DNA from: Naegleria lovaniensis
Lineage: Eukaryota; Heterolobosea; Eutetramitea; Acrasida; Naegleriidae
Assembly (NCBI RefSeq): GCF_003324165.1
Contig: NW_025407867.1
Span: 235,600 to 299,599 of the forward strand
Reading direction: 5' to 3'
DNA: 64,000 nucleotides
Positions 703-58,632 of this stretch are shown in pieces. Under the pieces are notes generated by a model. The model ran no database searches. It saw nothing but the letters and a program-made list of their open reading frames with translations, and was not told the DNA's origin. Each line of letters opens with the position of its first letter. Position 1 is the first letter of the stretch. The translations under genes were made by a program, and so were the position numbers.

Positions 703-1695
703 ATGAGCCAACAATCATCCCTGGGAAATAGAAATCATGTTAACAATAATATACAGTCGGAGCAACAACATGTAAATTCTTCTGGACGTTCTTCTTACCC
801 CGATAAAAACACATCGGATGCCATTACTCTTAATGATTTCTATTCATCGTTACACTATTCGGAACAAACTCTCAATGAACAGCAAAAACAAATTTATAAT
901 ATCATGGAACGAATGAATTATTGTCATCAACAAGCAGTTAAAATTGCAGGAGATGCAAAATTGGGCCAAGTCAATATTATTGAGAAATTGTGTTCAGTGA
1001 ATTTATTAAAAGGCTCTGAATGTTTGAAACAATTTGTATCTTTCAATGCAGAGGAAAGTCCAACGAGATTAAATTCATCCAAAGCAGAATATGGCCAATT
1101 TTATTATAATTTAATGCATTGCCAGGACAAGGATCCAGAAACAAAAATGAAATATCAACAATTTATGGAGGAGAGGGAAGAATTTTCCGGTCTTCACACC
1201 AACCCTTTGAAGGAGGTTTTACCTGACGTTTACAATAATTTAACATTGAAAAATAGGGACGCATTGAAAGAAGTCTTTTCCAAAGTTGATTCTAGCAGCG
1301 AAGATCGAGCGCTCCGACTGAATGACGAGATTAGAAAACGATTTGCTCAACCCCAATATGAAAATTTGAGAAAATGTGCCAAAGATCGATACTTTAAAAG
1401 AATCAATGAAAATGCAACAGAATTTGGACTAAGAGAAAATAATGCAAATGAGCTAGCTCACAAATGCTTTGTTCCTTACATGGAATATTTCACTAGGATG
1501 GGTTCCATTCTGTGCAGAAGACAAATTCAAAATTGTTTAGGCTATGGTGGAAAAAACGACATGAAGAACGAGTCAGAGGACATGCAAGAAGGTACAACTG
1601 TCTTTTATCTACATTCGTGCATGAATGAGCAAGAGTTTGTGGGTCAGTGTTTGAGATATCCTGAAAAGTATTTCATTCAAAGTTTAGATGAATAA
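703..1695 (+). CDS. Hypothetical protein (330 aa)
   Basis: Intact single-exon frame starting at ATG 703. The first 45 residues are polar and low-complexity (Ser/Asn/Gln), followed by a soluble, mainly helical, charged body without signal peptide or membrane segment. Scattered cysteines in the C-terminal half (for example SILCRRQIQNCLGYGG) do not form a zinc motif I know. It lies head-to-tail with the TPR/ankyrin gene about 100 bases downstream. No function is assigned. Confidence 0.6.
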   Translation: MSQQSSLGNRNHVNNNIQSEQQHVNSSGRSSYPDKNTSDAITLNDFYSSLHYSEQTLNEQQKQIYNIMERMNYCHQQAVKIAGDAKLGQVNIIEKLCSVNLLKGSECLKQFVSFNAEESPTRLNSSKAEYGQFYYNLMHCQDKDPETKMKYQQFMEEREEFSGLHTNPLKEVLPDVYNNLTLKNRDALKEVFSKVDSSSEDRALRLNDEIRKRFAQPQYENLRKCAKDRYFKRINENATEFGLRENNANELAHKCFVPYMEYFTRMGSILCRRQIQNCLGYGGKNDMKNESEDMQEGTTVFYLHSCMNEQEFVGQCLRYPEKYFIQSLDE

Positions 1696-1794
1696 ACAAC
1701 ATCTTGTTTACATTGAACAAGTTTTTACTTTAATTTAACACACCATACCTGAATTCAATGAATTTAAGGAGCTTACCTGTCATTTGTTAAAAAA

Positions 1795-40024: not shown

Positions 40025-40945
40025 TAAATGATCATTTTGATTTTCAATGTTTCTACATTGCACAACAACAAGAGTTTGGAAATAATTAAAGGAAACTAAT
40101 GGGTTTGAAACTCGCCAAACATCCATCCTTTGGAAAAGGATTGGTGTTTGAGGGATTTTCTACATATTTTGTCATCTGACTTTATTAATGTATCAATTTT
40201 GTTCCAAAACAGTCTGAGTATTGTCATGCTGAAATTTCATCACTGTAAGAATTGGTTTTGAATGAGGTTGTGAGATAGACAAAATTGTACACAATTAGCC
40301 ATGGTTTAAGAACCGTTGAATCACGATTCCTAGATTAAAAAAGACCGTTGTTATTTGAAACTCTTCAACATTTCAACGTTACTGAAATTGTCTCATTTGA
40401 AATTTCATTCAACTTGTTCTTCATCATTCAAAGAAAATCCTTGAATATTACAACGTTCAGTCGTTACGTTAGGTCTTGTCTTTTGGAAGTTGTTCATCCA
40501 TCATCAATTTTTTGTAATCTTGGAGTCTGCTTGATTGCAAGAAACCCCAAAAAAACAACCCGAATCCTTTCTCTCTCCATAAGTGTGAACGAACACTGTG
40601 AATCCTCTGGAGAGGTGTACATCATCATTAACAACAACAACTCAGCAACAAAAAGAGTATCCATACTCATTGGGTACTCTTTTTTTCGAGAATAGTTGAT
40701 CATCATCGGGTTACGACTAGTAGTGGAGATTTTGATTTGTAAACATCATCATCATCAAATTTTCAAAGAGAGAATTGAATAATACTCTTATCATCAAACA
40801 CATCAAACTTTCAATAATCAATATTACCATCACATATATTCCCACCATCATTCTTAACTGATTATTATTACCAAAATCTATTTCCGAAACAAACGACACT
40901 TTTGTAAATATATAAATCAACCACCCAAATCCTCAACAACAACTG
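40025..40945. other. Long intergenic region with T-run hairpin
   Basis: Some 920 bases without a convincing gene; the frames inside are short, lack ATG context and overlap on both strands. One structure stands out: AAAAAGAGTA (40650-40659) pairs with TACTCTTTTT (40675-40684) over 10 bp, and the 3' arm runs into a T-tract. An internal GAGTAT/ATACTC offers a competing hairpin. ATC-rich simple sequence lies at 40740-40770. The promoter and 5' UTR of the kelch-SAM gene must be at the right end. Confidence 0.4.
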
Positions 40946-43900
40946 ATGATAAATTCAGAATATACAGAAGAAGAGGAAGAAGAATATATTTTAGCAGATC
41001 AATCCGATCAAGCCTCATCAGCCACGACCTGCAGTAACAATGTCCGACGACGACGTTTGTGGTCCATACCAAGTCCATCATCAGGAACATCACCCTCTGC
41101 AAGATGGGGGCATTGTAGTGTCATGTTGAAACATCCCAATATCAACTCGAATCATCCTACTTTGATGATTCATGGAGGATTTGATGGTGCCAACATGCTT
41201 AACGATGTACATTTATTTGATGCAGTCACAAATACATGGAAACAGCCTGTAAAAACTTTTGGAAGCACACCGAGTCCAAGATCTGGACATTCTATTACTG
41301 TCTTGTCGGAAAACAAGGGTAGACTTTTGTTTATTGGAGGAGGTAATGGAATGCATTACTTGTCTGATTTAGTTGTGATGGAAATTGTAACAGAGAATGA
41401 TGATGAGTTTAAAAAGGAGTTGCAGTTACTTTCAACGACCGAGACATCGATACAGTGTTGCAACATGTTTCGTTGGACTCGACCAAAAGTATCGAGTCGT
41501 GTTCGAGTCTACATTTCAGATGATGACATTATTTTAACAGAGGAAGAATTTCACAAACTGCAAGAAGAAATTGCTAATAATAAGAATAATTCAAGTGGAG
41601 CTATAGAAAATGGTGATGGAGATGAAAACAAAAATCCACTCGTCTCATCAAAAGTAGTGGAGCAATTCATTCGTGCAAATCAATCAGGAACTAAGGAAGA
41701 CTTGATTGGCTTTGGAAATCCCTCTCATCATGAACAACTTGATTCCTTAAATTTTACCATGAAGGAAATTTACCCTGCTCCACGAAGCAGGCACACAGCA
41801 GTTGTGACAGAGGATAGCTCACGAGTAATCTTGTATGGTGGAGGAGGAAAAAATAGAATTTTTGATGATATTTGGGTGTTAGATGTGAACGAGATGGAGT
41901 GGAGCCAACCACCTGAATCTGAAAACAAGCCCTCTGCTCGATGGGGTCACTCTGCTTGTGTACACTCTGGAAAGATGTACGTCTTTGGTGGCGTATTTAA
42001 AACGAGCATGCTCAATGATTTGTACATGCTTGACTTGACGAGCTTTGTTTGGACGAGAATTGAATTGCCAGACCCTGGACCATTTCTGGCACCTCGAGCT
42101 GCTCACACAGCTAACATCATTTTAGGACGATATCTAATCATATTGTGGGGAGGAGATGACACTAAATATTTTGAAGATTTATACGTACTTGATTTACAGT
42201 CACACAAAGCACGAAGAATTGAATTTAAGAGTCCAAAAGCAAGATGTGCCCATACGACATGTCTCATCGATAACAATTATTTGTATGTTTTTGGAGGTGG
42301 TGGAGGTAATCATCGATTTAAAGAACTCTACTTGTTTGACATTAAGGCTGCATTTGAAAAGCTGGGAATTTATGAAACCTATGGCTACGAATCCGATGAC
42401 GAGCTATTGACCAGTGACACAGTCGAGTACTCGAAAGGTCAATGTTTTTCGCAATATTTGGACAAAATTTCACAAAGCTATCTCGAACTTAGAAGCGATG
42501 TGAAAATAGAAGGAGGACCAGAAGAGAAGCAACGCAGCGACACGATTGGCAGCACCGCCAATGATACCACTACCAATTCACATTTACCATCGACTGAAGG
42601 CACAGACGTGACACTGACCAAAACAAAAACTACACGACGAAAGAGAAGCAGCTCCAAACGGAAAACTCTCAGTACTGGCAATGGAGATCAAATATTTGGT
42701 AGTAAGGAAGTCAAAGAGGTGACGAATTGGCTGGTCAATCTTGGACTTGGTCGCTATGCAAGCATTTTTCTACAGGAAGAGATTGACTTGGAATGTATAC
42801 CACTTCTTACAGATGCCGACTTGTTCAAATTGGGAATTTCAAAATTTGGACCTCGAAAGAAAATTCTTGCAGCTGCGAAATTGATTCCCACTTCGTACAT
42901 GTACACTCCTCCTCATGAAAATACTTCCTCACAACAAATTCCTTCACATGCACAACCATCGAATGTTGAGTCACATGTTGACAGTCATCATTCGACCACC
43001 AGTACGACTTCTCCTCCCTATTTACATCAACGATCTGTTTCATCCTCTTCGGGTACCATACTGCCCGTCGACACTTCGTCTTCCTCCACAGCCTATTTCA
43101 CAGAGACAGCCAATAACATTATCCAATCGGTGGGAAATCTTACCAACACCTGTGACGGTATTAAGGATAGTCTAAAATCACTCTCTGCCAATCTGTCCAA
43201 TCTTACCCTAATGCTTTCGAATCCCTATTATGGATTTCGACATCCGGCTGCAGTCGCAATTTCCATGCACAATCAAATGCAACAACGAATTCCGTCAAGT
43301 ACGAATACCACGAACACGAGTAGTGGTGGTAACAACAACATGGCTAATCCAAACTCTTCATCCTCTTCGAATCAATCCAATTCGAATATTTCCTATCCGA
43401 ACAATGTCAACAACAATAATGGCAATCTTCATCAAATTCCAACCGTACCCGTTTCTCCAAGACAAACCAATTTTTCAATGCCTTATAATTTGGAATATGG
43501 TATGATTCCACCTCCACCTCCACCCACAACCATTTCACCAGTGGTGGTTGTTGGCAATAATATTCCTTCTCGACCAAGAAATTTATCAAATTCAACATCG
43601 ACATTTAAACGAAATACACTCCTTCCACCACCAATTTCAACTCAACAAAATAGTGAATCCAACCAAATTCCAGCTAGAAATGTGTCGTCATCGTATCATG
43701 AAAGATCCACTACTTTGAGTCATCGTGACAATCACGCAACATCAATGAGCAGCATGACTAGTAACGGACATTTTGAATCAGATAACACAAATACTAATAA
43801 TCAAACAATGTCAATTTCATCTGGAAGTGTCAACCAATCGATTCCTACAGCATCGAATGGAAGTGGAATAACCAATTCAAATTCACAAACTCAAACGACA

Positions 43901-44059
43901 ACAAAAAAGAAGACACGAAGTCGAAAACCAAAGAAAAATGGAACTTCTACATTGTCACAACAAGATCAAGTGAGTATAGATCTTTCTCCTGACTTTCCTT
44001 CCTATAATGCTGGTGAGAGTTGGTTTGATGTTACAGAAAGAGATCATGAGTCGGATTGA
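40946..44059 (+). CDS. Kelch-repeat and SAM-domain protein (1037 aa)
   Basis: Single exon. An acidic N-terminus and a short basic patch precede at least five kelch repeats (residues about 50-470), e.g. PSARWGHSACVHSGKMYVFGG and RSRHTAVVTEDSSRVILYGGG, with the G-G and Y...W spacing of the motif; a long insertion splits the propeller at about 150-270. A SAM domain lies at about 588-650 (VTNWLVNLGLGRYASIFLQE...LGPR-like FGPRKKIL). The remaining 380 residues are Ser/Asn/Thr/Pro-rich, including a poly-Pro run, and end in a basic patch and an acidic tail. It is probably a scaffold joining a propeller and a SAM oligomer; partners unknown. It marks the left border of the accessory island. Confidence 0.85.
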   Translation: MINSEYTEEEEEEYILADQSDQASSATTCSNNVRRRRLWSIPSPSSGTSPSARWGHCSVMLKHPNINSNHPTLMIHGGFDGANMLNDVHLFDAVTNTWKQPVKTFGSTPSPRSGHSITVLSENKGRLLFIGGGNGMHYLSDLVVMEIVTENDDEFKKELQLLSTTETSIQCCNMFRWTRPKVSSRVRVYISDDDIILTEEEFHKLQEEIANNKNNSSGAIENGDGDENKNPLVSSKVVEQFIRANQSGTKEDLIGFGNPSHHEQLDSLNFTMKEIYPAPRSRHTAVVTEDSSRVILYGGGGKNRIFDDIWVLDVNEMEWSQPPESENKPSARWGHSACVHSGKMYVFGGVFKTSMLNDLYMLDLTSFVWTRIELPDPGPFLAPRAAHTANIILGRYLIILWGGDDTKYFEDLYVLDLQSHKARRIEFKSPKARCAHTTCLIDNNYLYVFGGGGGNHRFKELYLFDIKAAFEKLGIYETYGYESDDELLTSDTVEYSKGQCFSQYLDKISQSYLELRSDVKIEGGPEEKQRSDTIGSTANDTTTNSHLPSTEGTDVTLTKTKTTRRKRSSSKRKTLSTGNGDQIFGSKEVKEVTNWLVNLGLGRYASIFLQEEIDLECIPLLTDADLFKLGISKFGPRKKILAAAKLIPTSYMYTPPHENTSSQQIPSHAQPSNVESHVDSHHSTTSTTSPPYLHQRSVSSSSGTILPVDTSSSSTAYFTETANNIIQSVGNLTNTCDGIKDSLKSLSANLSNLTLMLSNPYYGFRHPAAVAISMHNQMQQRIPSSTNTTNTSSGGNNNMANPNSSSSSNQSNSNISYPNNVNNNNGNLHQIPTVPVSPRQTNFSMPYNLEYGMIPPPPPPTTISPVVVVGNNIPSRPRNLSNSTSTFKRNTLLPPPISTQQNSESNQIPARNVSSSYHERSTTLSHRDNHATSMSSMTSNGHFESDNTNTNNQTMSISSGSVNQSIPTASNGSGITNSNSQTQTTTKKKTRSRKPKKNGTSTLSQQDQVSIDLSPDFPSYNAGESWFDVTERDHESD

Positions 44060-44589
44060 GGCATAAAATAACTAACTGTCAGTTGTCACGGTTGTTGCTA
44101 AGGCATTGATACCAAGCATTCCCATGTTCTTTTTAGGTAGCTATGAAATGGACAAGGCAATGATCTATCTATTTGTGTGTTCTTTATCAGGTAAACTGTT
44201 TATTTATTTGCTAGATACAACTGGCCTCCACCACACTTGTGCCACGACAAAATTTCCAAACAAAGATTTTTTAAATAGTAGAATCAGCGGAAGGAATCTG
44301 TCACACGACCTCAAACAACACACAAACAACCAACAACAAGTCTCCTTCTCATCTATTCCACTAGAGAATGAATGAAATAATTTTTAAAATTGAGAATGTT
44401 GAACGGATGAGTTGTTTCAATATGAGAGCCTTTCAACTATGTCTTCATCTATTCTACTCAATTAGAAAATAATTTTCAAAGTTTTTATCTGATGAAAATC
44501 TCAATACGCATGTCGAACCTAATCTTATTATGTCTTTACAAAATTAAAAAGTCACACGCGTTAAAAATAATGAACAACAACAACACTTA

Positions 44590-44735
44590 CTCGGAGAGCA
44601 CACCATACTCCATCAATGATAACAATGATTTTTTGGTGTTTTAAAGTGCTCCGATCACATACTCATCTCTCACACGAGAGACGGAATTATCATCTTGACA
44701 GAATGATAATCACATAGTTATTATTATATAGATCT
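44590..44735 (-). ncRNA. Structured 3' flank of the Fanzor gene, candidate guide RNA (omega-RNA)
   Basis: Downstream of the Fanzor stop, read on the minus strand, three inverted repeats follow one another: ATTATCAT/ATGATAAT (about 44715-44688), TCTCTC/GAGAGA (about 44682-44667), and a long one in which TCGGAGCAC...ACACCA pairs with TGGTGTGCTCTCCGA (about 44655-44591). Fanzor and TnpB guide RNAs are known to come from the 3' end or 3' UTR of the nuclease gene. Position and structure fit, but no transcript or element boundary is shown, so this is a candidate only. The rest of the 715-base gap 44060-44774 shows no gene. Confidence 0.35.
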
Positions 44736-44774
44736 ATGGCCCGAATGATGAATCATTTTAGTTGTCTCTTCAAC

Positions 44775-47603
44775 TTACCAATGTAATAAATGATGGTAAT
44801 TCTTGATCAAAATATTTCTTGCTCCATTACCGTCACGAGGGATGTGGAAGTGACAATGATTGCAATGAAACCATTTGCTTCCATAAAGGTCTTCCTTGAT
44901 CACTGAACAATTTCCACACGTTTTCGATGTATATTGTTCTGTGACAACATGTACCTTGCATCCACGCATTTCTGCCTTTTGCAAGAGTTTCATTCGAAAA
45001 TCATAGTGTCTAAATCGCAACATTTGGCGAACAGTTTTTCTAGTAATTTTTCTTCCAACCCATTCGGAGGTGTTGGTGGTGGTTTCACTCGTAGTGGTGT
45101 CCCTTGATTCCCATCCTTCGAATGGTGAAGACGATGCAACAAGAGGTTCTGTTCGCACATCCATATTCTCCGTTTGGCCATTAGTATAACCTTCTTGTCC
45201 TTGACACGTGGTATCTTCTTTTCCTTGACGCTTCCTTTGTTTTTGTTTTCTAGCAATCATGGCCTTGACATTAAATTCAGGTATTATAATTTCAGAATAG
45301 TGGAAAGTTAAATAGTCAATAATTTTGTTATGCATATCATTCACCTTATTTCTAATTTTGCTTTCCAACCTTCTAATCTTCTTTTTTAAGGCTTTTCTTA
45401 AACCCTTATAAAATTTTCGTTCCTGCCGAGAATTGTATTTTAGAAATTTGTTCTTGGCAATTTCAGACCTGAGCTGATCTTGCTTTAGAGAAAGGGAAAA
45501 GAGTATGGTGTTTTCTCCTTGAGCGGCAAACTCCAACGCGTCTCCATTACTATCATAACCATACATGAAGCATCGAACACCTGGATCCAATGCAATGTAT
45601 TCCTTTCTGAGTTCATTTTGAGAAGGTTGTGGGCAGTCCTTGAGAAATTTCGTGTCATATTCAATTCCACTGTTCGAATTGGACTCGTAAAAGCTTTTAT
45701 CAAACCGTTGGTATTCTTGTCGAGTTAAAGCTTTGTGATAACGGACTGGAAGGCAAACAAAATATCTTCCTCTTTCTCGTATAAAGGTTGTCTCGTGTGA
45801 AAATTTTTTGTTGTCTTGAGGTTTGGGTAGGCAATGGGCAGACGGATCATGGAAAAATTAGAATTCAGAAAAGTTCCAATCACATGAATCAATCACATTC
45901 ATGTAAGAGATTCAAATCACATGTAAGTAAAATCGAAATACATATATATACATACCAATCTCTTCCTTTAACCACTTTCGTGCTCTTGCAGGATAATAAA
46001 ATTTCAAAAGATGATCCGTAGATTTCTTGGAAGGACATGCATTTTCATTCCCTTTAAAAAAGGTAGGTTTTAACAACACTCCTTCCTGTGATAATGAAAT
46101 GTTTGTCACCTTGAACGATTGATATGGATGTTGATTGCTTCGTCCTTTCATTTCGAATTCACGAGGTTGTCGAGTAAAATGTTTGGGATTAAATCTTTCG
46201 TTCATTTCCTCATCAGTAATCATCTCCTTCTTTCCTTTTTGAACATCTTTAAAAAATTGGTTTTTGGCCTTTCGAGCAGCCTCTTTGGATTCCTTTTCTG
46301 CTGCTTGCTTATTGTTATATCTAGTAATTTTCTCAGCCTTGACAAAATCCTTCACAGCGTTCAATTTAATATCTGCTGGACAATGTTTCAACTCTTGATC
46401 CCATAGCCACCTAGTTTGTTTGAATCTCAGGTTGGTTTGGGGATTCTTCAAAATTTTAAAGTAATCGTCTTCTGTGGTGGTAAGGAGTGTTTTTCCCTTG
46501 TTTTGCTCTAACATGAAATGAAGGAGACATGCTTCGTTATAAGCATGGTTAGAATTGAAGAAAAATCTTTCAAAGACCTTCTTTTGTTCTGAGGTGAGTT
46601 TCAATCTCACTTTCTTTGTTCTCACAAAATAATTGTCTTCGTTTGAGATTGAGAAGGAGGTGTAAATTTGTTTTAGCAATTTCTCAATAGTGTCATCAGC
46701 TTTTTCCTTTGATTCCGCAGTAGTGGATGAATTGACTCCATTCTCAGCAGTCATAGATGAACTCACTCCATTCTCAGCAGTAGTGGATGAATTGACTCCA
46801 TTCTCAGCAATCGTAGATGAATTCACTTCATTCTCTGCAGTAGTGGATGAATTCACTTCGTTCACAGCAGTCGCAGATGAACTCACTTCATTCTCAGCAG
46901 TCGTGGATGAACTCACTCCGTTCTCTTGAACCATTGTTAAAGACTCCTCCAACGCAGATACTTGCTTGAATTCCTGAACAAGCTTCTTCTTTTCTGACCC
47001 AAACTTGCGTCCGTTGAACGAGCAGACTGTCCTTTTAAACTTGGAATTCCCACACTTACATGGCGTCTTTTTCCAAGTTTCTGATTTACTCCACACTTTT
47101 TCTACCAATTCCTTCTTGCTCGGAGGTGGTTTTGTGGATGGACATCGTTGGCGAACGGAGAGGGTAAACCAACTTTGGGTCAGTATTTTCGTACCATTCT
47201 TGGCAAAACATGACACGGGACAAATCTTGTTCAAACGATCAACCGTATCATCATGCCAAAACGGTTTTCTTAACTCCTTTGAATCAGTCGAAACAGTGGA
47301 ATTGGGAACCATCCTTCTCTTATTCAATCTCTTCTTCGATGGTTGTTGTTTGTGATAGAGTTGCCTTTTTCTTAACCGTCGAACCTTATTTTTCAGCGAC
47401 TGAAATGTTCGGTGTGTAAAGTAATCTCGGTAAATTTGTTCCAAATTCATTCCCTTCCGCAAGGATGTCACAATTAAATCCTCTTCCGACTGTGAATAAG
47501 GTTCTCCTGGAGTCGTTGATACATTGGACTTGTTCGATGATGGTTGTGCTTGTCTTAACGGTAAGGGTTTGGATGGACTTAATTGACCAAGTTTCATAAT
47601 CAT
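44775..47603 (-). CDS. Fanzor: eukaryotic TnpB-like RNA-guided endonuclease (895 aa from ATG 47603)
   Basis: Two exons, 47603-45956 and 45814-44775; the 141-nt intron (GTATGT...TCAAG, phase 1) restores a continuous protein through GRYFVCLPVRYHKAL. The C-terminal half has the split RuvC nuclease: Asp in ALDPGVRCFMYG (about 625), Glu in IIIPEFNVKAM (about 729) and Asp in PRDGNGARNILIKN (about 877), with a four-Cys zinc finger (CGNC...CNHC). Upstream, VRTKKVRLKLTSEQKKVF and a TRWLWDQEL helix match the Fanzor/TnpB nucleic-acid recognition lobe. N-terminally there is a Myb-like helix set (about 36-85) and eight 10-residue repeats (about 222-296). All catalytic residues are present. The stop TAA overlaps GTAAGT, so a short further exon cannot be excluded. 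Confidence 0.9.
46714..46937. repeat. In-frame 30-bp minisatellite inside the Fanzor gene
   Basis: About seven to eight copies of a 30-bp unit encode a 10-residue repeat of the form ENGVNSSTTA with substitutions (ENEVSSSATA, VNEVNSSTTA, and so on). It falls in the linker between the Myb-like N-terminal region and the nuclease lobe. Because the unit is a multiple of three, copy number can change without breaking the frame. Likely a flexible, disordered spacer. Confidence 0.9.
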
Positions 47604-47695
47604 TTTCTGGTAATGGTCAGAATTGGTCCATGTTTCTGGAAAAGTTATCGATATAGTAGAGGTAAAGGTGTTAATATCAGTGATTTCTGAAAAGG

Positions 47696-48142
47696 TTAAA
47701 TCATCGACACTCCATTGAATAATAAATTTGTTGCATCTGAAACGTCATACGCTCCTTCCAATCTGGCACGATTAATCTTTCTTTTCAATTTCTTGTACTT
47801 TTTCTTCAATGAGTTGATGGATCTATCAAAAAAGAAAGTACCAATCTTGCTCCATTCCATATTGAATTGTTTTAAAAATAACAACATGTAATGTTCTTGG
47901 GTTGCGTATGTTTTTCCTTGATCGAGAGAGAGAAATTCAATACTAATTCCACGCTCCAAATAAGCAGTCCTTAATAAGTCTCCAAATTTATCAACAGTAG
48001 ATACGTCTTTCAATACTTCCAATCTCTGCCAATGAGAAGCAATCTTCTTCTTTTTCTTTGCTCTTTCTTCCTCAACTCTCCGACACTTGTCAAACTGTTG
48101 TATTTTGGGTGCTCGATCAATTAATGACCAGACAATATTCAC
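47696..48142 (-). CDS. Myb/SANT-like frame upstream of Fanzor, probably its N-terminal part
   Basis: About 148 codons, open further upstream to about 48190 but without any suitable ATG. It encodes a basic helical region and a Myb/SANT-like motif (MEWSKIGTFFFDRSINSLKK then KYKKLKRK), resembling the one at the Fanzor N-terminus (HRTFQSLKNKVRRLRKR). The Fanzor frame stays open upstream of its ATG to about 47740, so a single extra A in the AAATTT at 47724-47729 would fuse the two into one protein with tandem Myb-like units. It overlaps the first codons of the divergent Crinkler-like gene by 19 bases. Confidence 0.5.
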   Translation of the reverse strand: MNIVWSLIDRAPKIQQFDKCRRVEEERAKKKKKIASHWQRLEVLKDVSTVDKFGDLLRTAYLERGISIEFLSLDQGKTYATQEHYMLLFLKQFNMEWSKIGTFFFDRSINSLKKKYKKLKRKINRARLEGAYDVSDATNLLFNGVSMI

Positions 48143-51074
48143 TATGGAAATTGGAGCCAGTGAGTAAACAAATCATACAAAAATTGGGCGAACCAATTGC
48201 AAAAGGAGGCGCTGATTTGAGTCTTGATCAAGTTTCTTCATTAGATAGCAAAACTCTCTACACCATTGCAAGTGATTTAGCCTCATTCAAGGATGAACTC
48301 GTGGCTATCCAAAACATGAAAAATCTTGACACCACTTTGTGCACGAAAGTTGTCAAGTGGGTCAATCAATTTCTACTACAGGACAAGATTCAAGTTAAGA
48401 AATTCACTTTTCCTACACCGTCTTCATTCTCTCCAGACAATATTGAAGAAATGGCCGCTGAAGATGAATTAGACAAAAAATATCTTCAAAGCAAAAACTT
48501 ACACAAAAGTGAGAAGGCATTTCTCGATGATTTATTGAACAACTACACTCTAAAAGATTTAACAAAACCTTCCCCGATAGCCACGGATAAAATGAGTTTT
48601 AAAATGAAACACCGTGAAGAGACAATCAAATTAGTAGTGAGTGTAGCAAAGGAACATTTGAATTTCAAAAAAGGAGGGAATAAGCAAGGTTTAAACTTTT
48701 TCATTGCAAAAGGAGGAAGCGGAAGTGGAAAATCACGAATTTTAACGGAAATACCCAACATTATGCGCAAAGCAACAGAACTGGATGCTATTTTCCAAAA
48801 CACACAGATTATTTATTTTAACTTTGTTGTAAATCAACAGAAAGATGGTTGGTAAAACGGATTATTTATTCTTCGCCGCGTGTGCGTGCGCATGTCTAAT
48901 AGTTGAATAAATAAGATTTACATTACCTTTTCTATCCTGTAATTCAGCAAGAGTACAACACAAATAGATGCAACAAACATATGCATCAGTCTCATACAGG
49001 ATGACATTATTAAGCGTGCGCTGATTAAACATCCCATGGTAAACCATGAGGCATCCTTTGGACTGAAATCAGTTCAAAGAGCATCCCACTAAAGTGAGGC
49101 ATCCTATTGCGATGCAATAAGGCATCCCATGATTAAAATCATAAGGCATCCCAATGTATTGAGGCATCCCAGCTCAAATGGCCAAGGCATCCTTTGGACT
49201 GAATTCAGTTCAAAGAGCATCCCACTAAAGTGAGGCATCCTATTGCAATGCAATAAGGCATCCCAAGTTGAGACATGAGGCATCCCACCCAAAGGTGAGG
49301 GAGTTGTGGAAAGCCACAACTATGTTTGTTTATTTCAGAGGTGGATTGGGAGGAGGGTGGGTACTTTTCAATTCTTTGAGAGAAAGTGATTCTATCACCT
49401 TTCTCGAAGTAATTGATAATAATTGTTCCATATCACAAGTAATGTAAATTTTTTTTTGAAAGTGAAAATTCAAAAAATTAGTCAACCAACCACTTTTATT
49501 GATTACAACAAACCTCAGTAAAACTCCCTTTTACTACCGAATTTGCAAAAGGGTTCTCATTGGATGATTCTGAAAGAGATAAAGCATCAATTCCAATGAT
49601 TGTTTCCAGAATTGTCTATGCTGCATTTGAAGGGAACATTGAGGATATCATTCAGAAAATGCCATCCAGTGCTAATGATTCTCTACTCTATGGAGTTTTG
49701 AAAATAATATCAATGAAACTCCATGAACAATACAAATCAACTGAAATTATTCCATTAGTATTGGCCTTTGATGAATATCAATTGGCTACGAGACATATTT
49801 CAGGACTACACACCACAATCCAACACAAATTAGGATGGTATATGAGACATGTGCAATTCCAACACCAAATTTTACTCTTTCCTGCTTTTGCAGGAACCTT
49901 GAACGAAAATGACGCGAAAATGGAACCAACACAATATACACCCGCAACATTGCCACTTCCATCATTGAGATCGATAGATATCCAAGAGATTATGCAAGAT
50001 TTGGGCCTGTCAGCACTGTACGAGAGAAATAGGGAGTTTTGGAATGCCATTGGAGTCGTACCTCGGCATTTACAGTGGGCTCTAGAAGGCTATGATGTAA
50101 AGAAGCAAGAGTTACAAAATATGGTAGACATTTTCAATGAAGATACTGTAATATCCAGCATATATTACAACGTAACAAACACCGTTCAAAGGCAATATGG
50201 AAGTGATTTACAAAAACCAACGGATTACTTTGTCGAATTGGCTCTGAGAACATTATCTGGATTGAGTGAAACGGAACAAGATGACAGAATTACCAAGTAC
50301 ATCCGTGAAGGAAAGGTATATGACACTAATGACTTTGTTGGGCTTCCTCTCGTAGTAATTGATATCTTGGCAACAAAGAAGGATTGCATTCCAAAGCAGG
50401 TCGTGACGGATTTCATTACAGCAACATCAAAAAAACCCAGATGGGAAATATTTGAGGAAGTGTGTATCAAAACAATGACGGCTAGATTTAATGTTTTGTA
50501 CACTGTCAACAAATCAACGACTGTACCTTTTTCAAGGTTGTTTAAGGGCGCACACTTTGCAAAAATGGGAAGAATTCTTTTGGAAACTACTAATGATGAG
50601 TGGTTTAGGTATTGTTGCTTGGATTCAAAAATATCAGACAGCAACGGAAATGCAAATAACGAACTTCTCACACTGAATCATTTGGCAAAGACGAAAAAGA
50701 ATCATAAAGATATTGATGGAGTATTTTGTCCTTTAATCAATGTTAACACAGGCAAAAGAATTGTCTTTGTTGTGCAAAACAAATTTCAACAAGAAGACTC
50801 GGAGAAAACTTTGCTCTCACCAGGCGAGATTGTGGAGTATTATGAAAATGCGGCTAAAACACCGTTCGAAAACTCTGAGACTTTTGTAATCATTTTCACA
50901 AACAAAAAAATATCCAAATCAACAAGAGATATGATAGAAAAAGGAAAAATTACAACCACCAAAGAAAAAAAGGAACTTGTAGTCGCTACTGATAAGTTAA
51001 TAGTTGTATCTGGTGATTGTTTTGATAATTTCTTTCATCCTTTCGTTGCCAATATTTTGCTTGGAGGCCAATAA
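48124..51074 (+). CDS. Crinkler/RHS-type P-loop NTPase with C-terminal REase-like domain, interrupted
   Basis: The first part (ATG 48124 to about 48850) ends in a P-loop NTPase start: NFFIAKGGSGSGKSRILTEIP (Walker A) and a strand IIYFNFVVN. The second part (frame open from about 49507 to 51074) continues the domain with SIPMIVSRIVYAAF and PLVLAFDEYQ (Walker B). It ends in a REase-superfamily-like module with DGVF...RIVFVVQNKFQ, where Q-x-K replaces the usual E-x-K. This layout is that of Crinkler-RHS-type proteins, proposed selfish or effector proteins. The joint is not clean: a GT-AG splice with GTAAAA breaks the frame, a GTTGGT donor at 48848 keeps it. About 670 bases with the stem-loop array lie between. 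Possibly an intron, possibly an insertion. Confidence 0.7.
49030..49320. repeat. Linker-palindrome array: A-GGCATCC alternating with variable stem-loops
   Basis: Thirteen units in 290 bases. A short constant linker (A-GGCATCC, once ACATCC, twice AGCATCC) separates spacers of about 10-22 bases that are mostly self-complementary with different sequences: CATGGT/ACCATG, TTTGGACTGA/TCAGTTCAAA (one G-T), CACT/AGTG, TATTGC/GCAATA, ATGATT/AATCAT, CAAT/ATTG, one weak unit, a second TTTGGACTGAA/TTCAGTTCAAA, CACT/AGTG, TATTGC/GCAATA, CAAGT/ACATG (one mismatch), CACC/GGTG and finally GTTGTGG/CCACAAC. A block of about 79 bases is duplicated (49050-49128 and 49186-49264). Between here and 49517 I see only a T-run and no gene. 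Confidence 0.9.
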
Positions 51075-51473
51075 AACGTTCACTTTAGCATTGATTTTCC
51101 TCAAAGCCAAATTCTTCCATTATGGAGTGCAATTTCGAACCACAATCAGAGGAAACAACGGTTGTTTGTCTGGCAACAATTTACCTTGAATTTTTCATTG
51201 TCAGGATTTGAACCTTCGATCAACGAAACGAATTTGGATATTTGTTTTTTTGACATGACCTGGAGCTAAATAATTCAGATTCAAGGAAAATCATCCCATT
51301 TTGCAAACTCATGATGGTGTATTGGGCCAAGCTTCAATGGTGTAAAGGATACGAATGAAAAGCAAGTTTCGAGCTTTTAATCAACAAGCTCATTTTTCCA
51401 ACAGCGCCGTTATGCCGAGGAATAATTGTAATCAAACCATTACAATCCACAACACGTTTCAAACAAAAAAAAA
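51075..51473. other. Intergenic region, right border of the island
   Basis: About 400 bases between the Crinkler-like gene and the small secreted-protein gene. No coding frame, array or terminal inverted repeat was recognised. A T-loop-like string on the minus strand near 51205-51220 does not belong to a tRNA. It ends in nine A's immediately before ATG 51474, the start context seen in many genes here. Confidence 0.35.
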
Positions 51474-51809
51474 ATGCAAGTTCGTTCCTTCCAACTCTTA
51501 GCTTTATTAATCCTTCTATTGTTCACTCTTTGCATTTTCAACAACGTTCTTGGTAGTCATGATGTTTTTGATGAATTGAGTGATCATGTCAGTGGTCATT
51601 ACAACACCATTCATTCGAAACATCGTCAACATGACCATCACGGTCATGGAAGACCACCAAAATTGGGACGACCTGGTAAAGGAAGTGCTATTGGAATAGC
51701 ACCTCAACCAGTCGATGAAAATAATCGAAAGGATGATCGATCTGTTTTGGTTGGCAACAATGATCGAGGAAATGAGATGGATCAAGGAAATGAATTGATT
51801 CAGGTTTAA
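51474..51809 (+). CDS. Small secreted His-rich protein, unknown (111 aa)
   Basis: A textbook signal peptide (LLALLILLLFTLCIFNNVLG) is followed by about 80 polar residues with a His-rich stretch (HSKHRQHDHHGHGRPPK), which could bind metal, and an Asn/Asp-rich tail. No cysteines remain in the mature part and no domain is recognised. Start ATG follows a long A-run. It ends about 100 bases from the convergent pirin gene. Confidence 0.65.
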   Translation: MQVRSFQLLALLILLLFTLCIFNNVLGSHDVFDELSDHVSGHYNTIHSKHRQHDHHGHGRPPKLGRPGKGSAIGIAPQPVDENNRKDDRSVLVGNNDRGNEMDQGNELIQV

Positions 51810-51906
51810 TGTTGTTGTTGATGTTCAGTGTGTCAAGTTCAGTAAAAAAACAATTTGAAATATTTTCACACACAAATGGTTGAAATTGTTTTTCCAAATG
51901 TTTGGG

Positions 51907-52827
51907 TTAATGAGAAGAATTGGAATGAACAATCATATCGAAAACGACAAATTCCAAGAAGGAATCAATGGCATTTGTCGTTTCTCGAGAGGCTTGATCC
52001 ATTAATTCTTTCGTTTTGAAAACAATTTCAAGCGACTTTCCAAACAAGGCAACATTTTCATTCGTGAGCAAACATGAATCTCCAGGACCAAGTTCAATCA
52101 ATGGTTCTTCTTGTTCTTTTTCAGAATATTCATTCAGCTCTTTCTTGATAATAATTTGAAGAAGTTTTTCTTTCGAATGAAATTTTTCATTATTTCCCCA
52201 AAATGGAACATGAATAAATAATCTTCGACAAGCTCTCAGTTCATGTCGAACTTGATGACCGAATTGTAACAAACTCGATAATGCAAAGAAATCTTGATCC
52301 ATTCCAATAATTTCCTCATTTGGAAAATTGTCATTCTCTTGTTGAATGGAAGAAATTAATTCTTTTGGAACAATCATGAGACAGAGTTGATTCAACCTCT
52401 TTTCATTTGAAAATTCAATTTTCTGATACCTAGGAGGTGTATTCAACGTTCTTGGTTTGACCCAAATTTGTAACAATTTACAATCCCATTCCGGATGCTT
52501 GTTCATTTCGGAGTGAAACATTCCGCTTCCGGCGGAGGTAAATTGCACCGTTCCGAAACGACACCGATGTGCATTTCCCATGGAATCGTAATGAGATAAT
52601 TCTCCACTCAACATGTATGTGAAAATTTCATAATTTTGATGAGGATGACTTGCAAATCCATTGTTATTTCGTTCCACACAATCTTCATTGACGACTCGAA
52701 GGGGAGAATTTCGAGGTAAGTGTTGGTGAGAGTGAAAAGCTTCGAGCCAACCTTGTTTGATGTGTTGACGTTTGTCAGATGGAATGAATTGAATCGAAAG
52801 GAGTGGAATGGAGCGAGGTGAAGACAT
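51907..52827 (-). CDS. Pirin-family bicupin (306 aa)
   Basis: Start at ATG 52827; upstream in-frame codons are not ATG. Cupin motifs of pirin are clear: FASHPHQNYEIFTYMLSGEL supplies the two-His metal pair and SAGSGMFHSEMN the third His and the Glu, with HYDSMGN between. The second cupin half is more divergent and carries an insertion rich in Glu near the C-terminus. Pirins bind Fe; eukaryotic ones act as nuclear cofactors and some bacterial ones as quercetinases, so the role here is open. No targeting signal seen. Confidence 0.9.
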   Translation of the reverse strand: MSSPRSIPLLSIQFIPSDKRQHIKQGWLEAFHSHQHLPRNSPLRVVNEDCVERNNNGFASHPHQNYEIFTYMLSGELSHYDSMGNAHRCRFGTVQFTSAGSGMFHSEMNKHPEWDCKLLQIWVKPRTLNTPPRYQKIEFSNEKRLNQLCLMIVPKELISSIQQENDNFPNEEIIGMDQDFFALSSLLQFGHQVRHELRACRRLFIHVPFWGNNEKFHSKEKLLQIIIKKELNEYSEKEQEEPLIELGPGDSCLLTNENVALFGKSLEIVFKTKELMDQASRETTNAIDSFLEFVVFDMIVHSNSSH

Positions 52828-53004
52828 GGAGGAACTCTTTGTATGTTTTTTTTTGAAATAGATAATATGAATTGGGATTGTTTTTAAAATGAAAACTTTG
52901 CAGTTACCGAAACTCAAAGTCCAACTCTTTAATACGCACGCTTAACCGGATGACACTTGACATTTAAGGTTTTTTCTCGAGATTGCTGTATGAACCCCCC
53001 ATTC

Positions 53005-54712
53005 CTATCTCTTTGGTAAATCCTTAACCACATTTCCCGAATGCACCTCTCTCTGCATCACTTCTTGATGATAATGTTGATTAATATTTCGTGTCAAATA
53101 AAACCAAATCACCCAACACACAAAAACAACCCAACCCAAACAAAACATAACCAATGCCAACAAGTGTGGTTGTTTCAACCCCATTACATCATACAACAAT
53201 GGAGAAGGGACCATGACACCCAATGCTTGTCCAGCTCCAAATCCAAAACAAATGTCAAACGCCGTGACACGTCCCAAAAAATGATTTGGTGTTAATTGTT
53301 CAATGGCAGACATGCTGTACACCCAAATGACACCAGCAGCAGATCCTAATATGAAACTTCCAATCATGAACATGGACACGTGAATGGTAAAGGTCATTAA
53401 TAAAAATCCTAATGGAAGGAATAAGAAACAAATGAGAATGACGAAACGTAACCAAAACGCACTTCGCAACGATCTTCGAATTCGATTTCCCAAAATCAAT
53501 TCACACAACATGGGAGCAATTCCTGAACCTACTCCAAATAAGCAATACGCAATCGTGTTGGTATTTTCAGGACTGTTCCCAATGGTAACGATTGGAAATT
53601 CTGAAATTTTCACATTAATAAATTCCACACTCGCCCAAATAAAACTTCCAATTAATTTCATTACTGCAAAACTCAATAAATAACCTCTTCCTCCCAATAA
53701 CAATTTAAATCCTTGATATAATTCCACAATACTGTGTCGTACGAGAGCGAGACCTTTCGGAGTGTTGGCAGGTTTCGGAGGATTCAACTCTGGAAACCAC
53801 ATCAATCCAATGGTTAAGGCAAGAGCGAACACAAATAACATTCCATTCATGAGATAGACGGTTAATAATCCAAAACTAGCACGAATCAATCCTCCCAAAG
53901 CAGCACCTGCATACGAGCAAAACAACCATGTCAAACTGTCCAATGCATTGCATGCAATTAAATCATGATGATCGACCACGAGTGGTAATAAACAACCACG
54001 ACAGGCATCGTAAAAGGCATTGATGAAAAACATGAAAAACATTTCCATGTAATAAAAGGCAAATAAGGGACCATTTCCTAAATGTTGAATGAGAAATCCG
54101 AAAGGAAGACAGAAGGCGACGATTCCTCTTAATATGTTGGCAATGATCAAGACAATTCTGCGATCGAAGAGATCGCTGCAAACGCCGGCGAGAGGCATGG
54201 CGAGACAGGATGGAGCAAAGATGGAAATGAAGAGGGCACCTGTGGCAAAACCAAAGGTTGCTCGATTCTCTACTTCATAAATGACACCTGTGACATTTTC
54301 ATTTACCAAATATAGAAATTTTAAAGTCATGCATGATCATCAGGTTAGTATTTCTATCAAAACCCAATATCCAATACTCACCAATTTCCGAAAAATAATT
54401 TCCCATTCCAGACAATACTCCTGCCATCCAAATCATCATAAATCTCTTATTATGAAATAGTAATGAAATGTAAGGATTTCTCTGCAGCACTGGTTTCGAA
54501 CTTTCGGCATCGAGTTGTCCATATTCTCCCATCGTGGTCATGGCTGTTCCTTGTACAGCTGTTTCGTGAGGTTGTTCGGGAATGGTCTTGTGTTCCAAAA
54601 TTTCCTCATGATGATGTGTGTCTTGATTCATTTCATGGTGTGGTATTTCTTCAAGAGATGACGATGGTTGGATGGTTGTGTTGGGTGTGACAATGACATA
54701 TGGTTGCATCAT
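53005..54712 (-). CDS. Major facilitator superfamily transporter (537 aa)
   Basis: Two exons, 54712-54382 and 54287-53005 (intron GTGAGT...CACAG, phase 1). A long polar N-terminus (His/Glu/Thr-rich, about 80 residues) is followed by about eleven or twelve hydrophobic helices. MFS signature between helices 2 and 3: GVCSDLFDRRIVLI. The pattern resembles the drug/enterobactin-exporter-like MFS_3 branch. Substrate unknown. A His/Tyr-rich cytoplasmic tail ends the protein. Confidence 0.87.
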
Positions 54713-54965
54713 TTTCCAATGAACATTGAATTGGTGTCAATAATAATGATTTCTTTTTAAACTGGGTAATTGGTCACTCGATGCTCAAAACTGTCCTAAA
54801 ATGTCACTCACACCATAATGCTCTGTTGAAGAACACTTTTGGAGAAAACTGTCATTCGATACAATGTAAATTTAATACATCATGCATGTATTGGAAACTC
54901 AATGAACAAAACATACGTATATTCGTCAGTTCATCTAGTACTACGAGCACCAAGATGGTGTCGTC

Positions 54966-56974
54966 TTAAATACCTCCACCGTCGACGAGCTCCACCGAAC
55001 CAGTACTTTCAAATAAGACCTTAAAACATTCTTCTTCGTTTTCTGCAATTTGATGAATATAATCGCCACTGTTGTTGGAACCCACCAATGCACCTGTTGG
55101 TGTTGAGGATGAGGTCCATGGTTCACGAGACGCGTCGGATGGCACGAGTGCTAATTCAGCTGTCAATGCAACATCATTATTAGAACCAAGAGTTGTGGTC
55201 GTGTCATTCTTTGCACTACTAGTGGCCACTTGTTTTTTTCTAGAACTCTTCTTTAAGGATGTGATGGAGTGTTTCGACTTCTGCTGATTCTCGTCTCCTC
55301 CTCCTTCCTCATCCTCACTACTGTCTCCAAAAATACCAGCTAATTTCAGTTTTTTCTTTAAACGTTCAAGTTCTTGTTCCAATCTCTTCTCTCTCAAATA
55401 TAAGGCACGAATGGCTTGAGCATCAATATCGTCGTATTGGTAGACGGTTGATCCTGCATCAATATTCTTCTTTTCTTGTTGTTTAGTAAATGCATTTAAC
55501 ATGAAATTAATGACCGTCGTGGGTGACATGACACCTGTGTTGAAATTTTTGTGTTGTTCATCCGTTGCAGTGGTGGTTGCAGGTGGAGCATGTTTGGTGT
55601 CAATACTTAAATTCTTTGGATGATGACCTTGAGATGAGGAGGAAGTACTTGTTACAGCGGTGTTGTGCCCATTCAACAAACCATCATTAAGGTTTTCTAC
55701 TATTGAGGGTTGTTGATCACCATTGGAGATAGTTGACAAATTTGCTCCCGACTCCATCCTTGTAGAAGATGATGCATCCATTTCAGTATGAAGTGTCTGC
55801 TCTCCATTTGACAATGTCGCAGTCATAGTCTCATTATTCGAGTTGTTGGTATTTACAGTTGGCTTCTTATCCTTAATACATCTTGCAGGAACTCCCACGA
55901 GTGTACAATCACTGGGAGCATCTTTGACAACCACAGAGCCTGCACCAATTTTTACGTTGGACCCAATGACAATATTTCCCAATACTTTGGCACCGGAGCC
56001 GACAAGCACATTGTCACCCAGGGTTGGATGCCTTTTGCCTTTCGTGGTAGATGTTCCGCCAAGTGTGACGCCTTGATATAATGTACAATAATTTCCTACA
56101 ATTGCTGTTTCTCCAATGACCACTCCTGATGAATGAAAGGGTAATTGGATTTTTCGAATTCATTTCAATTTTAGTATTTCCATTAAACACAACAATTCAT
56201 TGTTGAAAATATAAAAGAAAATACAATAGTGCAATAAAATAAAGAGCATATTGTAATAATGAGATAAATATTCGTGTAATTAGAAAAGAATATCCCAAAA
56301 GAAATTGTTAATGTTAAATAAAAGAAATTGTTAATTAAGCCATGTGCATTTTCGGTAACCATTGGTTTCATACGACAAAATATTGTCACACAAAATATCA
56401 CACCAGGATCATTATCAATAATCACACCAACATCGGCTCGGATCTGTGACCACAACGGTTCAGGACAAACACACACTTGAGTATGTGCAAATTGATTATC
56501 GAGGTGAGGCTTTTGTTTCGTGGTACTAATTTTGGAGAGAGAGCTTAGGAGTTGTTCTCCTTCTTCCATTTTCTTTTTTGGGAAATCCTGATTCTCTTGA
56601 TTGTTGGGAGGTTGAGTAGAATGGATGATAATATTGGCAGTTGGAAGATGATGATGAACTTTTTCATCATGATGATGATGTATACTTGAAGCATTATCGG
56701 TGGTTGAAGAAACAACACCATTCAATTCCATAACGACCAAATCCGAGTAGGATTTATTGGCCAATGATGAAGAGAGGAGGGTAGTTGAAGTGGTGGTACT
56801 ACTGGATGATGTCGTGGAAGCAGAGCTATCGGACCGAGTTTCTCTAACGATCGTTGGATGAATAGGATGATCCTGATGATGATGATGATTGGATGAACCC
56901 ATGTCGAGTGGTTCTACTGATAATACTTCTGTTGATGTAGCTCTATCCGATGAGGAGGAGGACGTGTTCGTCAT
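54966..56974 (-). CDS. Serine acetyltransferase-like hexapeptide protein with long extensions (576 aa)
   Basis: Exon 2 (from 56125) encodes a left-handed beta-helix typical of Cys[46 protein letters not shown] and VGVPAR. Exon 1 (56974-56404) is Ser/Thr/His-rich and ends with a CysE-like helix ([18 protein letters not shown]). A 278-nt phase-1 intron joins them directly, which skips the roughly 80 residues of CysE that normally lie between; either more exons are hidden in 56126-56403 or the helical domain is lost. The C-terminus is extended by about 290 residues with a coiled coil and acidic/Ser-rich tracts. CysE makes O-acetylserine for cysteine synthesis; activity here needs testing. Confidence 0.75.
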
Positions 56975-57594
56975 CGTTATTTGATTTTTATTGTTGAGAG
57001 AACAAATCAACACATTCCATCATGGAGTTGATGAGAGGAGTATTTTGCGTATGTAATAATTTCGCATAAATTCCAGGCAATTTCCTTAGGACGGAATTTC
57101 AAAGATAAAATTCCAATCCTCAAATTCCCTCCGATTCAGGTTGAAACAATCCCCACGCGGATCCAATCTCTTCATCGTTAAGGTCAGATCACTAATGACA
57201 GTCGGTACCCTGATGGTTCAAGTTCGAGTAATGGAATAATACATTTCTAAATTTGAGGGTTTGGTGACTCTTTCGGAAGAGTGTTACGATTTGGACCGTT
57301 TTGGCGCCAAGTACAAAAAATCTCTTACAAAAAAAAATTGTTGTTGCATCAGTTACCTTTGACGGTTACACTTGGGAGAATCATCGCTCGGCTAAAATCC
57401 CAAGTATTATCTCTGTTCAACCACTGGATATCATCATCATCAGTAATACATTAGGCTTCTTTTCTCTTAATTGTACAACTTCATCAGAGTTAGACCAAAA
57501 AATCCGTTTCTCAAGAGTTCTGAATAAGATCATCATTTTGTTTCCTGTAAATATAAATCATTCCGCGTATAAGATATAACCATCCTCACCAATA
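56975..57594. promoter_or_regulatory. Divergent intergenic region (acetyltransferase-like / hemerythrin)
   Basis: About 620 bases between divergent starts. A frame on the plus strand inside it starts with a non-ATG codon and shows no family features. No tRNA, repeat array or hairpin longer than a few pairs was recognised. It must contain both promoters. Confidence 0.35.
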
Positions 57595-58579
57595 ATGGGT
57601 TCAGCACTATCGGTTGGAAGAAAGTCCTCAACGAAAAAGGACACAGACGTACGAAAGAGCACCGACTCACGTAAGAGTATTGATAAATCATCAAATGCGA
57701 ACAATCGTAACAATGGCGTGAGGAGTAGTGTGGATAAAAGTATGAATGATCAAAAGGCCTCTGAAAATAACAAGAACTCGGCTGATTCCAAAAAGCCAGT
57801 AGAAGTTGCCAAGCAGCCCTCAAAAGAACAAGTTAAGGAAAATCCAAAACAGGAACAACCAAAGAATACCGAATCAATGGATCAAAGCAAAGCAGAAACG
57901 ACCACTCAGCCAAACGGAGAGGAAAACGGCTCGTCTTCCGAACCCGTTGAGAAACCTAGACCTCAAACCACGTTACTTGGACGCAAGAAAGCAAATATTG
58001 ATGATATTCCAGAATTTGTTTTCCACTCAGATAAGGGTAAGTAAGGTGTTGTTGTTAATAAGATTTTTCATCAACTATGACACACCATAACAGATTTATT
58101 ATTCGGAGCCGACATTGCCATGCCATGGAAACCAGGTTATGCTCTCGGAGTTCATATTATTGATGAGCAACATAAAGTATTGGTTAAGCTTATCAATGAA
58201 CTAGCAGAGGCCGTAAAAGATGGTCACATGAGATATGAAATTGGAAGCGTGTTCGACAACTTGGTAGAGTATACAGATTTTCACTTTAAGAAGGAGGAAG
58301 ACCTGATGCAAAAGTATCACTATGTGGAGGAGGACGAACAAGCTCACAAAGAAAAACATGAACTTTTTGTCAAGACCATCTTCAATTTAAGAACCGATTT
58401 TATTAACATGACAGTGGATAATATTGGTCAAGGTATGTTCTTTTGCTAAATTCTTTATGTTTACATTCCTCTTTTCATTAGACTTATTCAACTTCTTAAC
58501 TGACTGGTTATTAACTCACATTTGTCAAATGGATAAGAAATTGTGTGACTTTTTGCTTGAGAGAAATATCAACGAATAA
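57595..58579 (+). CDS. Hemerythrin-domain protein, probably N-myristoylated (292 aa)
   Basis: Three exons, 57595-58036, 58094-58432 and 58482-58579. The N-terminus MGSALSVG is a classical myristoylation signal (Gly2, Ser6), followed by about 130 disordered Lys/Ser/Asn/Glu-rich residues. The C-terminal 140 residues are a complete hemerythrin four-helix bundle: ALGVHIIDEQHKVL, YTDFHFKKEEDLM, AHKEKHELF and, in the last exon, LLTHICQMDKKL, which supply the five His, the Glu and the Asp of a non-heme di-iron site. Hemerythrins bind O2 or sense oxygen, iron or NO; Naegleria genomes encode such proteins. Membrane anchoring suggests a local sensor or store rather than a soluble carrier (inference). 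Confidence 0.9.
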
Positions 58580-58632
58580 ATTATGCTCTTATCTTGAATC
58601 TAACTTTTAATGATTGTTGGCATGATATAGTA

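Follow-up and report, generated by a model that had tools for sequence, protein, structure and literature searches.

The gene described here lies on the minus strand of a 64,000-nucleotide stretch of the Naegleria lovaniensis genome (contig NW_025407867.1), which is called the window. It is probably a copy, truncated on the 5' side and frameshifted, of a DNA transposon that has multiplied recently and whose only long gene encodes an RNA-guided nuclease of the Fanzor2 lineage with a long N-terminal extension. The probability of this reading, including the mechanism proposed below, is put at about 0.78. The transposon ends, the duplications beside them, the multiplication of the element and the selection acting on the nuclease are seen directly. 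A preliminary description, made from the letters of the window, had called the gene an intact-looking Fanzor gene and a possible active nuclease. The interest of the window copy is mainly as a pointer to its family, called family A, which shares the genome with a second, compact set of Fanzors, called family B. Contigs and loci are cited by C and L numbers, the window being part of C46.

Ends, duplications and copies of the transposon

Comparison of the flanks shows that the unit is about 4.76 kb long (L010) and has the ends CTTTACGAAATTAAGAGTGACAC and, inverted, CTTTACAAAATTAAAAAGTCACAC. These terminal inverted repeats (TIRs) are imperfect and about 24 bp long. With up to three mismatches allowed, CTTTACGAAATTAAGAGTGACAC occurs at 68 places in the genome and CTTTACAAAATTAAAAAGTCACAC at 43, compared with one and none for the reversed controls. 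Many of these matches are short derivatives of the element, such as L028, which consists of 371 bp of the left end and 30 bp of the right end.

Ten of the 16 elements that have both ends are flanked by identical 4-bp sequences of the form ANNT (ATAT, ATTT, AAAT, ACCT, AGCT, ATCT in three elements, AATT and ACGT). The number of identical flanks expected by chance has a mean of 1.4 and reached a maximum of 8 in 100,000 permutations. Only the right end is present in the window copy, L018, L020 and L041, and only the left end in L027, L030, L035-L038 and the second left end in L032; these stand outside the 16. The inverted repeats together with the 4-bp ANNT duplications identify a cut-and-paste DNA transposon, and the Fanzor-bearing unit moves, or moved, in this way. 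Duplications of 2 or 3 bp were the first idea and were dropped; the 4-bp ANNT register gives symmetrical ends (CTTTAC...GTAAAG). Retrotransposition, suggested by the 5'-truncated copies, was also rejected: the intron is retained in the nine aligned copies, the left end of L016 was located past a further insertion, and the TIRs and 4-bp duplications account for the ends.

Exon 2 of the gene is found at 13 loci over 11 contigs (C46, C45 twice, C57, C2 twice, C55, C5, C28, C38, C34, C11 and C24), with 74-100% identity by aligned piece. This distribution within one genome makes contamination very unlikely, in agreement with the earlier view that the gene is nuclear. Exon 2 is open throughout at nine loci and is broken or a fragment at the remainder. 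Exon 1 can be aligned over all of its 932 codons at five loci and is free of stops at four (L014, L009, L013 and L011). All four also have an open exon 2, so that both exons are open at 4/13 loci, among them those at C2:942023 and C45:102861, and these more complete copies look functional. Older remnants of exon 1, with 60-83% identity, are situated on C8, C20, C24 and C3.

Miniature elements of about 80-200 bp between similar inverted repeats occur throughout the genome, for example at C12:163641-163722, C45:24913-24995 and C15:243794-243876. T-rich motifs resembling GTAA/CTTTAC were noticed by eye about 30 bp or less outside the left ends of L010, L011, L014, L029 and L032; they perhaps mark preferred targets or are what is left of the ends of other elements.

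The nuclease gene and its damaged copy

The profile search bears out the identification as a Fanzor gene. Exon 2 matches the Pfam families Cas12f1-like_TNB (E 6.6e-18) and OrfB_IS605 (E 3.6e-8), both over the cut-off, and the NCBIfam model guided_TnpB at 1.8e-21, under the cut-off of that model. Conservation was counted over 70 aligned relatives, namely 69 from a homologue list and the annotated paralogue C9374_003833 (P0123, 1242 residues). The list holds the best 120 of 3004 matches and by design nothing much beyond 870 residues, so that fused relatives of family A may be absent from it.

The first and third RuvC aspartates, in DPGVR and in the RD motif RDGNGARN that is expected of a Fanzor, are invariant (70/70), as the preliminary description had supposed. 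The glutamate that it placed in 'PEF' must be given up as the catalytic one. This residue, one past the canonical position, is Glu in only 14/70 relatives, and the canonical position itself is Pro in 70/70, whereas a Glu just upstream of the zinc finger (VTEQYTSKTC) is present in 70/70. Relocation of the catalytic Glu to the neighbourhood of the zinc finger, with loss of the canonical one, is the Fanzor criterion given in PMC10711439. The four-Cys zinc finger is as first described, with three of its cysteines found in 70/70 relatives and the second in 69/70.

The family A protein has about 470 additional N-terminal residues, rich in Pro, and an insert that separates RuvC from TNB. The extension appears to contain one probable and one weak Myb-like unit. 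Of the Myb-like units proposed at the outset, the first thus survives as a sub-threshold match to Pfam Myb_DNA-bind_6 (E 0.006 to 0.00036, with 0.0018 in the window copy), its 21.1 bits lying below the curated cut-off of 22.9 for a Myb/SANT domain. The second has no Myb family match in the Pfam search and weakly resembles the first (BLASTP E 0.001). The repeat linker, also proposed then, is real (Table 1). The structure model of exon 1 is poor, with a mean predicted local distance difference test score (pLDDT) of 51, and exon 1 alone has no match in the PDB at E <= 1. All three exon 1 relatives in the protein collection are from N. lovaniensis, in a search that scored just those candidates of a given length range with the most exact words in common. 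The papers that pair Fanzor with Myb, among those searched, appear to be reviews or plant papers.

The gene is made up of two exons from two frames of the open reading frame (ORF) list, one of 360 codons (44775-45857) and one of 610 codons (45912-47744). The phase-1 GT-AG intron predicted between them is supported, with the boundaries G/GTATGT...CCTCAAG/AC. In the alignment of nine copies the intron has gaps, with none in exon 2 or in the last 300 nucleotides of exon 1, and it diverges by 0.029 versus 0.011 for exon 2. The paralogue C9374_003833 is annotated with the identical junction (KEEI-D-NKKF), in an annotation built with RNA-seq through BRAKER1 according to PMC6125883.

The window copy is damaged, being truncated at the 5' side, frameshifted and deprived of its left transposon end, while its nuclease core is open. 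It is homologous to the longer copies only as far as 48077, and its alignment, which starts near residue 200, is split between two frames (residues 200-321 and 269-932). One nucleotide is missing in the bin 47530-48029 relative to 5/5 copies compared, which places the two Myb-like units in different frames. The gene is therefore not intact: about 1.2 kb on the left, with the ATG and some 200 codons, is gone, and the start assigned to it at 47603 is the first Met of the downstream frame. The longest remaining product that starts with ATG, traced by hand from 47603 through the intron, has about 895 residues. It would keep the entire Fanzor2 core, and the core enzyme could be made if the copy is transcribed. 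The suggestion of an active nuclease fails for the window copy as it stands, although its nuclease core is open and four sister loci are open throughout. No left TIR was found in the window with a pattern that falls one base short of the true right end, which is a weak test, and a looser scan of 51001-64000 was also empty.

The sequence from 44530 to 64000, where C46 ends, is 99.2% identical to C34:410462-429882. There are no substitutions between 51,530 and 64,000, and the difference within the element is about 1.8%. The edge of this block is exactly the right end of the Fanzor element (GTAAAG) plus ACAT; beyond it the flanks differ. There is about an even chance that the window copy does not exist in the cell in this form and results from misassembly at a repeat. 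The assembly of C46, which up to 44530 carries a real Fanzor element, would then have run on through the element into sequence of C34. The high identity and the position of the edge are what such a join would give, and redundant haplotype contigs are plausible in view of the variable ploidy, heterozygosity and loss of heterozygosity reported for Naegleria in PMC9928731. However, the element differs from the C34 copy along its length and is thus a distinct copy, and both contigs show the junction at 48077, which must be real at one locus at least. A true and recent duplication, segmental or mobile, that spans 19.5 kb or more and is bounded by the Fanzor right end is a more doubtful explanation. 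It could have arisen, for example, by one-ended transposition or break-induced replication from a break made by the Fanzor or a transposase. Its precise end at GTAAAG plus ACAT and the unlike flanks on the other side would agree with this, but its far end coincides with the contig end, which an assembly artefact explains equally well, and the loose scan mentioned above gave no left TIR there.

The C34 copy (L018) is also nearly identical to the C57 copy (L010, C57:1-10000) over about 2.5 kb of the element, and the first 546 bp of C57 equal the right flank of C34, suggesting gene conversion or uncollapsed haplotypes.

Selection, lineage and proposed mechanism

Exon 2 is under purifying selection. 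Its ratio of amino-acid-changing to silent polymorphism (pN/pS) is 0.18 over the 36 pairs formed by the nine open copies, the window copy included, and is 0.33, 0.03 and 0.06 in successive thirds. For exon 1 the ratio is 0.42 overall in the four open copies, with 0.31 in the Pro-rich segment, 0.20 in the segment of the first Myb-like unit and 0.27-0.40 in the core.

The 3' end of the gene changes little even at silent positions. Exon 2 has 21 codons that vary only silently, and none is among the last 77 of its 345 codons, for which (268/345)^21 = 0.005 with a boundary chosen after the fact; one codon with an amino acid change (301) varies within these 77. In the nine copies the 3' untranslated region (UTR) beside exon 2 diverges by 0.003-0.005, versus 0.029 for the intron, and the last 78 nucleotides of the element, a (TTG)n run and the TIR, by 0.045. 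A nearly silent exon end and 3' UTR would be expected if an omega RNA overlapped the end of the gene. The folding energy of the UTR is -54.9 kcal/mol, a value for the native sequence alone.

It is unlikely that the Fanzor is mere cargo, with a non-nuclease role in binding or regulating the transposon ends and its RNA-guided activity in disuse. The long extension and the constraint on the segment of the first Myb-like unit would suit such a role. The catalytic and zinc-binding residues are conserved, however, pN/pS reaches its minimum in the RuvC part (middle and last thirds of exon 2), and the 3' region is as silent as an omega RNA would make it.

The family A protein is assigned to the Fanzor2 lineage on the evidence of DPG, the relocated Glu, the PFW...SWF motif and the mimivirus Fanzor2 as its best structural match; the latter is far ahead of SpuFz1 in sequence and structure searches alike. 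That the protein is a Fanzor1, like most Fanzors described from eukaryotic cut-and-paste transposons, is unlikely: it is large, lies in a TIR transposon, and 4/10 exact duplications (ATAT, ATTT, AAAT and AATT, but not ATCT in three cases, ACCT, AGCT and ACGT) fit the AWWT of Fanzor1-bearing Sola2 elements (PMC3627910), but the ranking of the mimivirus protein and the Fanzor2 N-terminal motif oppose this, and inspection of P0123 by eye showed no TDG motif, which is ascribed to Fanzor1.

With the Fanzor2 proteins of IS607-like elements (NlovFz2; mimivirus L79, PDB 9b0l) family A has in common the RuvC and TNB core, DPG, the relocated Glu and HTH/REC. The N-terminal PFW...SWF motif is common to family A, family B and other relatives, L79 being outside this comparison. 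Compared with the compact Fanzor2s, family A differs in its length (1242 residues versus about 495), its intron, its N-terminal extension and the insert between RuvC and TNB. IS607-like elements insert by recombination between dinucleotides and lack a TIR-type cut-and-paste duplication, whereas family A ends in inverted repeats with 4-bp duplications; the ends of family B are CCG...GGCG. Family B (L021-L026) encodes proteins of 495-498 residues, for example C9374_005788, with 33% identity to family A in the part aligned with exon 2. It groups with P0004 (100/100) in a tree of 65 proteins, apart from family A. The tested N. lovaniensis Fanzor mentioned in the preliminary description is NlovFz2, the target-adjacent motif (TAM) of which is CCG and the locus of which is described as apparently without inverted repeats or a clear transposase (PMC10432273). 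Judging by the CCG starts and the compact Fanzor2 size, NlovFz2 most likely belongs to family B and is distinct from family A.

All six family B elements examined start with CCG and end with ...AAATAAAGGCG. Their start coincides with the NlovFz2 TAM as published, and a TAM may be predictable from the ends of an element alone.

Family A fits the description of Fanzor2*, the name for Fanzor2s that eukaryotic transposons have captured. Such Fanzor2s have been described within TIR transposons of an alga and of molluscs (PMC10711439). Like family A, the Fanzor2* elements of Chloropicon and molluscs hold, by their published description, a protein of the Fanzor2 lineage within TIRs and target duplications; family A differs in coming from Heterolobosea and in its fused Myb-like extension. 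Fanzor1s are also known from TIR transposons, including Sola2 elements with AWWT duplications (PMC3627910). In Dictyostelium fasciculatum and Polysphondylium these have short imperfect TIRs of 12-21 bp and 4-bp duplications, similar to the short TIRs and 4-bp duplications of family A, but they carry Fanzor1 and in some cases a Sola2 transposase, as reported in the same source, whereas the protein of family A is Fanzor2-like. Family A adds an apparently independent example to the Fanzor2s of TIR transposons, and its fused extension is unusual. Among the papers searched one pairs Fanzor with Naegleria, and supplementary tables may list family A.

In the proposed mechanism a transposase made elsewhere would mobilise the element. 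The Fanzor would bind an omega RNA that takes in the 3' end of the nuclease gene, its UTR, the right TIR and the ANNT duplication. The next 15-20 or so nucleotides of host DNA would be the guide, with ANNT as the predicted TAM. After excision the ribonucleoprotein would cut the restored empty site, and repair from a sister copy would reinstate the element. At a guess, the Myb-like extension may keep the protein near the element ends. The scaffold, guide, TAM and re-cutting in this model follow PMC10711439, which predicts that in Fanzor1 and Fanzor2* the guide scaffold includes the TIR and the target-site duplication.

Several points weigh against this account of family A. The omega RNA, guide, TAM and cleavage are predictions, and the copies are too nearly identical for covariation to bear on the candidate omega RNA. 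Constraint is weaker in the first third of exon 2, and pN/pS rises to 0.73 around the second Myb-like unit, 0.55 around PFW...SWF and 0.75 in the repeats. In the 65-protein tree, which had no Fanzor1 reference, family A is a very long branch of unsure place that meets the TnpB outgroup. An exact 4-bp duplication is missing from 6/16 two-ended elements (L011, L012+L040, L013, L014, L029 and L031); the right ends of L011 and L013 can be read two ways, with a mismatch under both. No partner transposase was found, in searches that were not aimed at a Sola2 transposase or an IS607-type recombinase, and aside from the Fanzor exons L010 and L014 have no frame longer than 125 codons on either strand. 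A 752-residue frame in L033, a TIR-bounded shortened Fanzor element with ACGT duplications, was rejected as the partner, as it belongs to a separate 2546-bp element nested at 1414-3960. This frame is C9374_009777, encoded at 100% identity by five loci; L042 and L043, the two other copies compared, share only the 2546-bp block with L033 and contain no Fanzor-element sequence.

Fanzors are eukaryotic RNA-guided nucleases under development as editors, and the passage of a prokaryotic IS607 nuclease into eukaryotic transposons is an open question. A tentative history, possible rather than probable, is that a cut-and-paste transposon in Heterolobosea independently captured a Fanzor2, which was then joined to a Myb-like module that binds the ends. 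A single protein would then find its own ends and re-cut the emptied site through an omega RNA containing the TIR and ANNT, with the very permissive TAM ANNT. Family A would be a living intermediate on the route that has been proposed from the IS607 Fanzor2s to the transposon-borne Fanzor1s, with the ancestral IS607-like type in the same genome. This one genome holds an IS607-like Fanzor2, most likely the one proven to cut DNA, and also a second Fanzor2-lineage family in a TIR transposon, open at four loci. The TAM, the guide boundary, the splicing and the role of the extension are all testable in one culturable, non-pathogenic amoeba.

Features of the window and minor observations

Table 1. 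Positions in the window of the parts of the family A copy and of the sequences beside it
Feature	Position	Strand	Basis or content
Host flank, inferred guide of the window copy	44510..44529	-	Right end of the element and model of PMC10711439
Putative right copy of the target duplication, ACAT	44530..44533	-	Left copy lost here; identical ANNT flanks in 10/16 elements
Right terminal inverted repeat	44534..44557	-	CTTTACAAAATTAAAAAGTCACAC read from outside; intact in the window copy
Candidate omega RNA region	44610..45008	-	3' end of exon 2 and 3' UTR, nearly no neutral change
Exon 2	44775..45814	-	End of WED, RuvC (DPG; relocated Glu), TNB zinc finger, RDGNGARN; stop codon included
Intron, GT-AG, phase 1, 141 nt	45815..45955	-	Nine-copy alignment; P0123 joined at the same junction
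Exon 1, surviving main frame	45956..47744	-	Myb-like unit 2, PFW...SWF Fanzor2 motif, repeat linker, HTH/REC, start of WED; evidence: ORF 45912-47744 and exon 1 open in L009, L011, L013, L014
30-bp tandem repeats, decapeptide linker	46717..46925	-	Self-overlapping matches; copy number differs among element copies
Exon 1 remnant with Myb-like unit 1, out of frame here (start approximate)	47730..48077	-	ORF 47696-48172
Truncation junction	48077..48078	.	Left ~1.2 kb absent (left TIR, ATG, first ~200 codons); same junction in L018, contig C34

The window gave no Rfam match at gathering scores and no tRNA with ARAGORN. A viral origin was considered and dropped, as a scan of viral contigs with P0123 found no relative. 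The same contigs scanned with alignment A2 gave 16 loci, three of which (L045, L050 and L056) hold a frame that reaches 200 codons or more and contains the zinc-finger motif; L045 and L050 are Fanzor2-like and L056 resembles an ordinary TnpB.

The nested frame C9374_009777 has DDE-like motifs by eye and a very weak C2H2 match, and one distant relative was found, P0002 (28%). A repeat of about 720 bp at 48823-49545 has ten more copies outside the C46/C34 duplicate, with 98-100% identity. Several of these copies have a partner of about 180 bp some 4 kb away, and the repeat looks like a solo long terminal repeat. It interrupts a frame (48001-51074) in which a Walker A motif, GGSGSGKS, was seen by eye. 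On the plus strand at 40916-44059, downstream of the element, a 1047-codon frame has Kelch-like repeats and a SAM-like stretch by eye.

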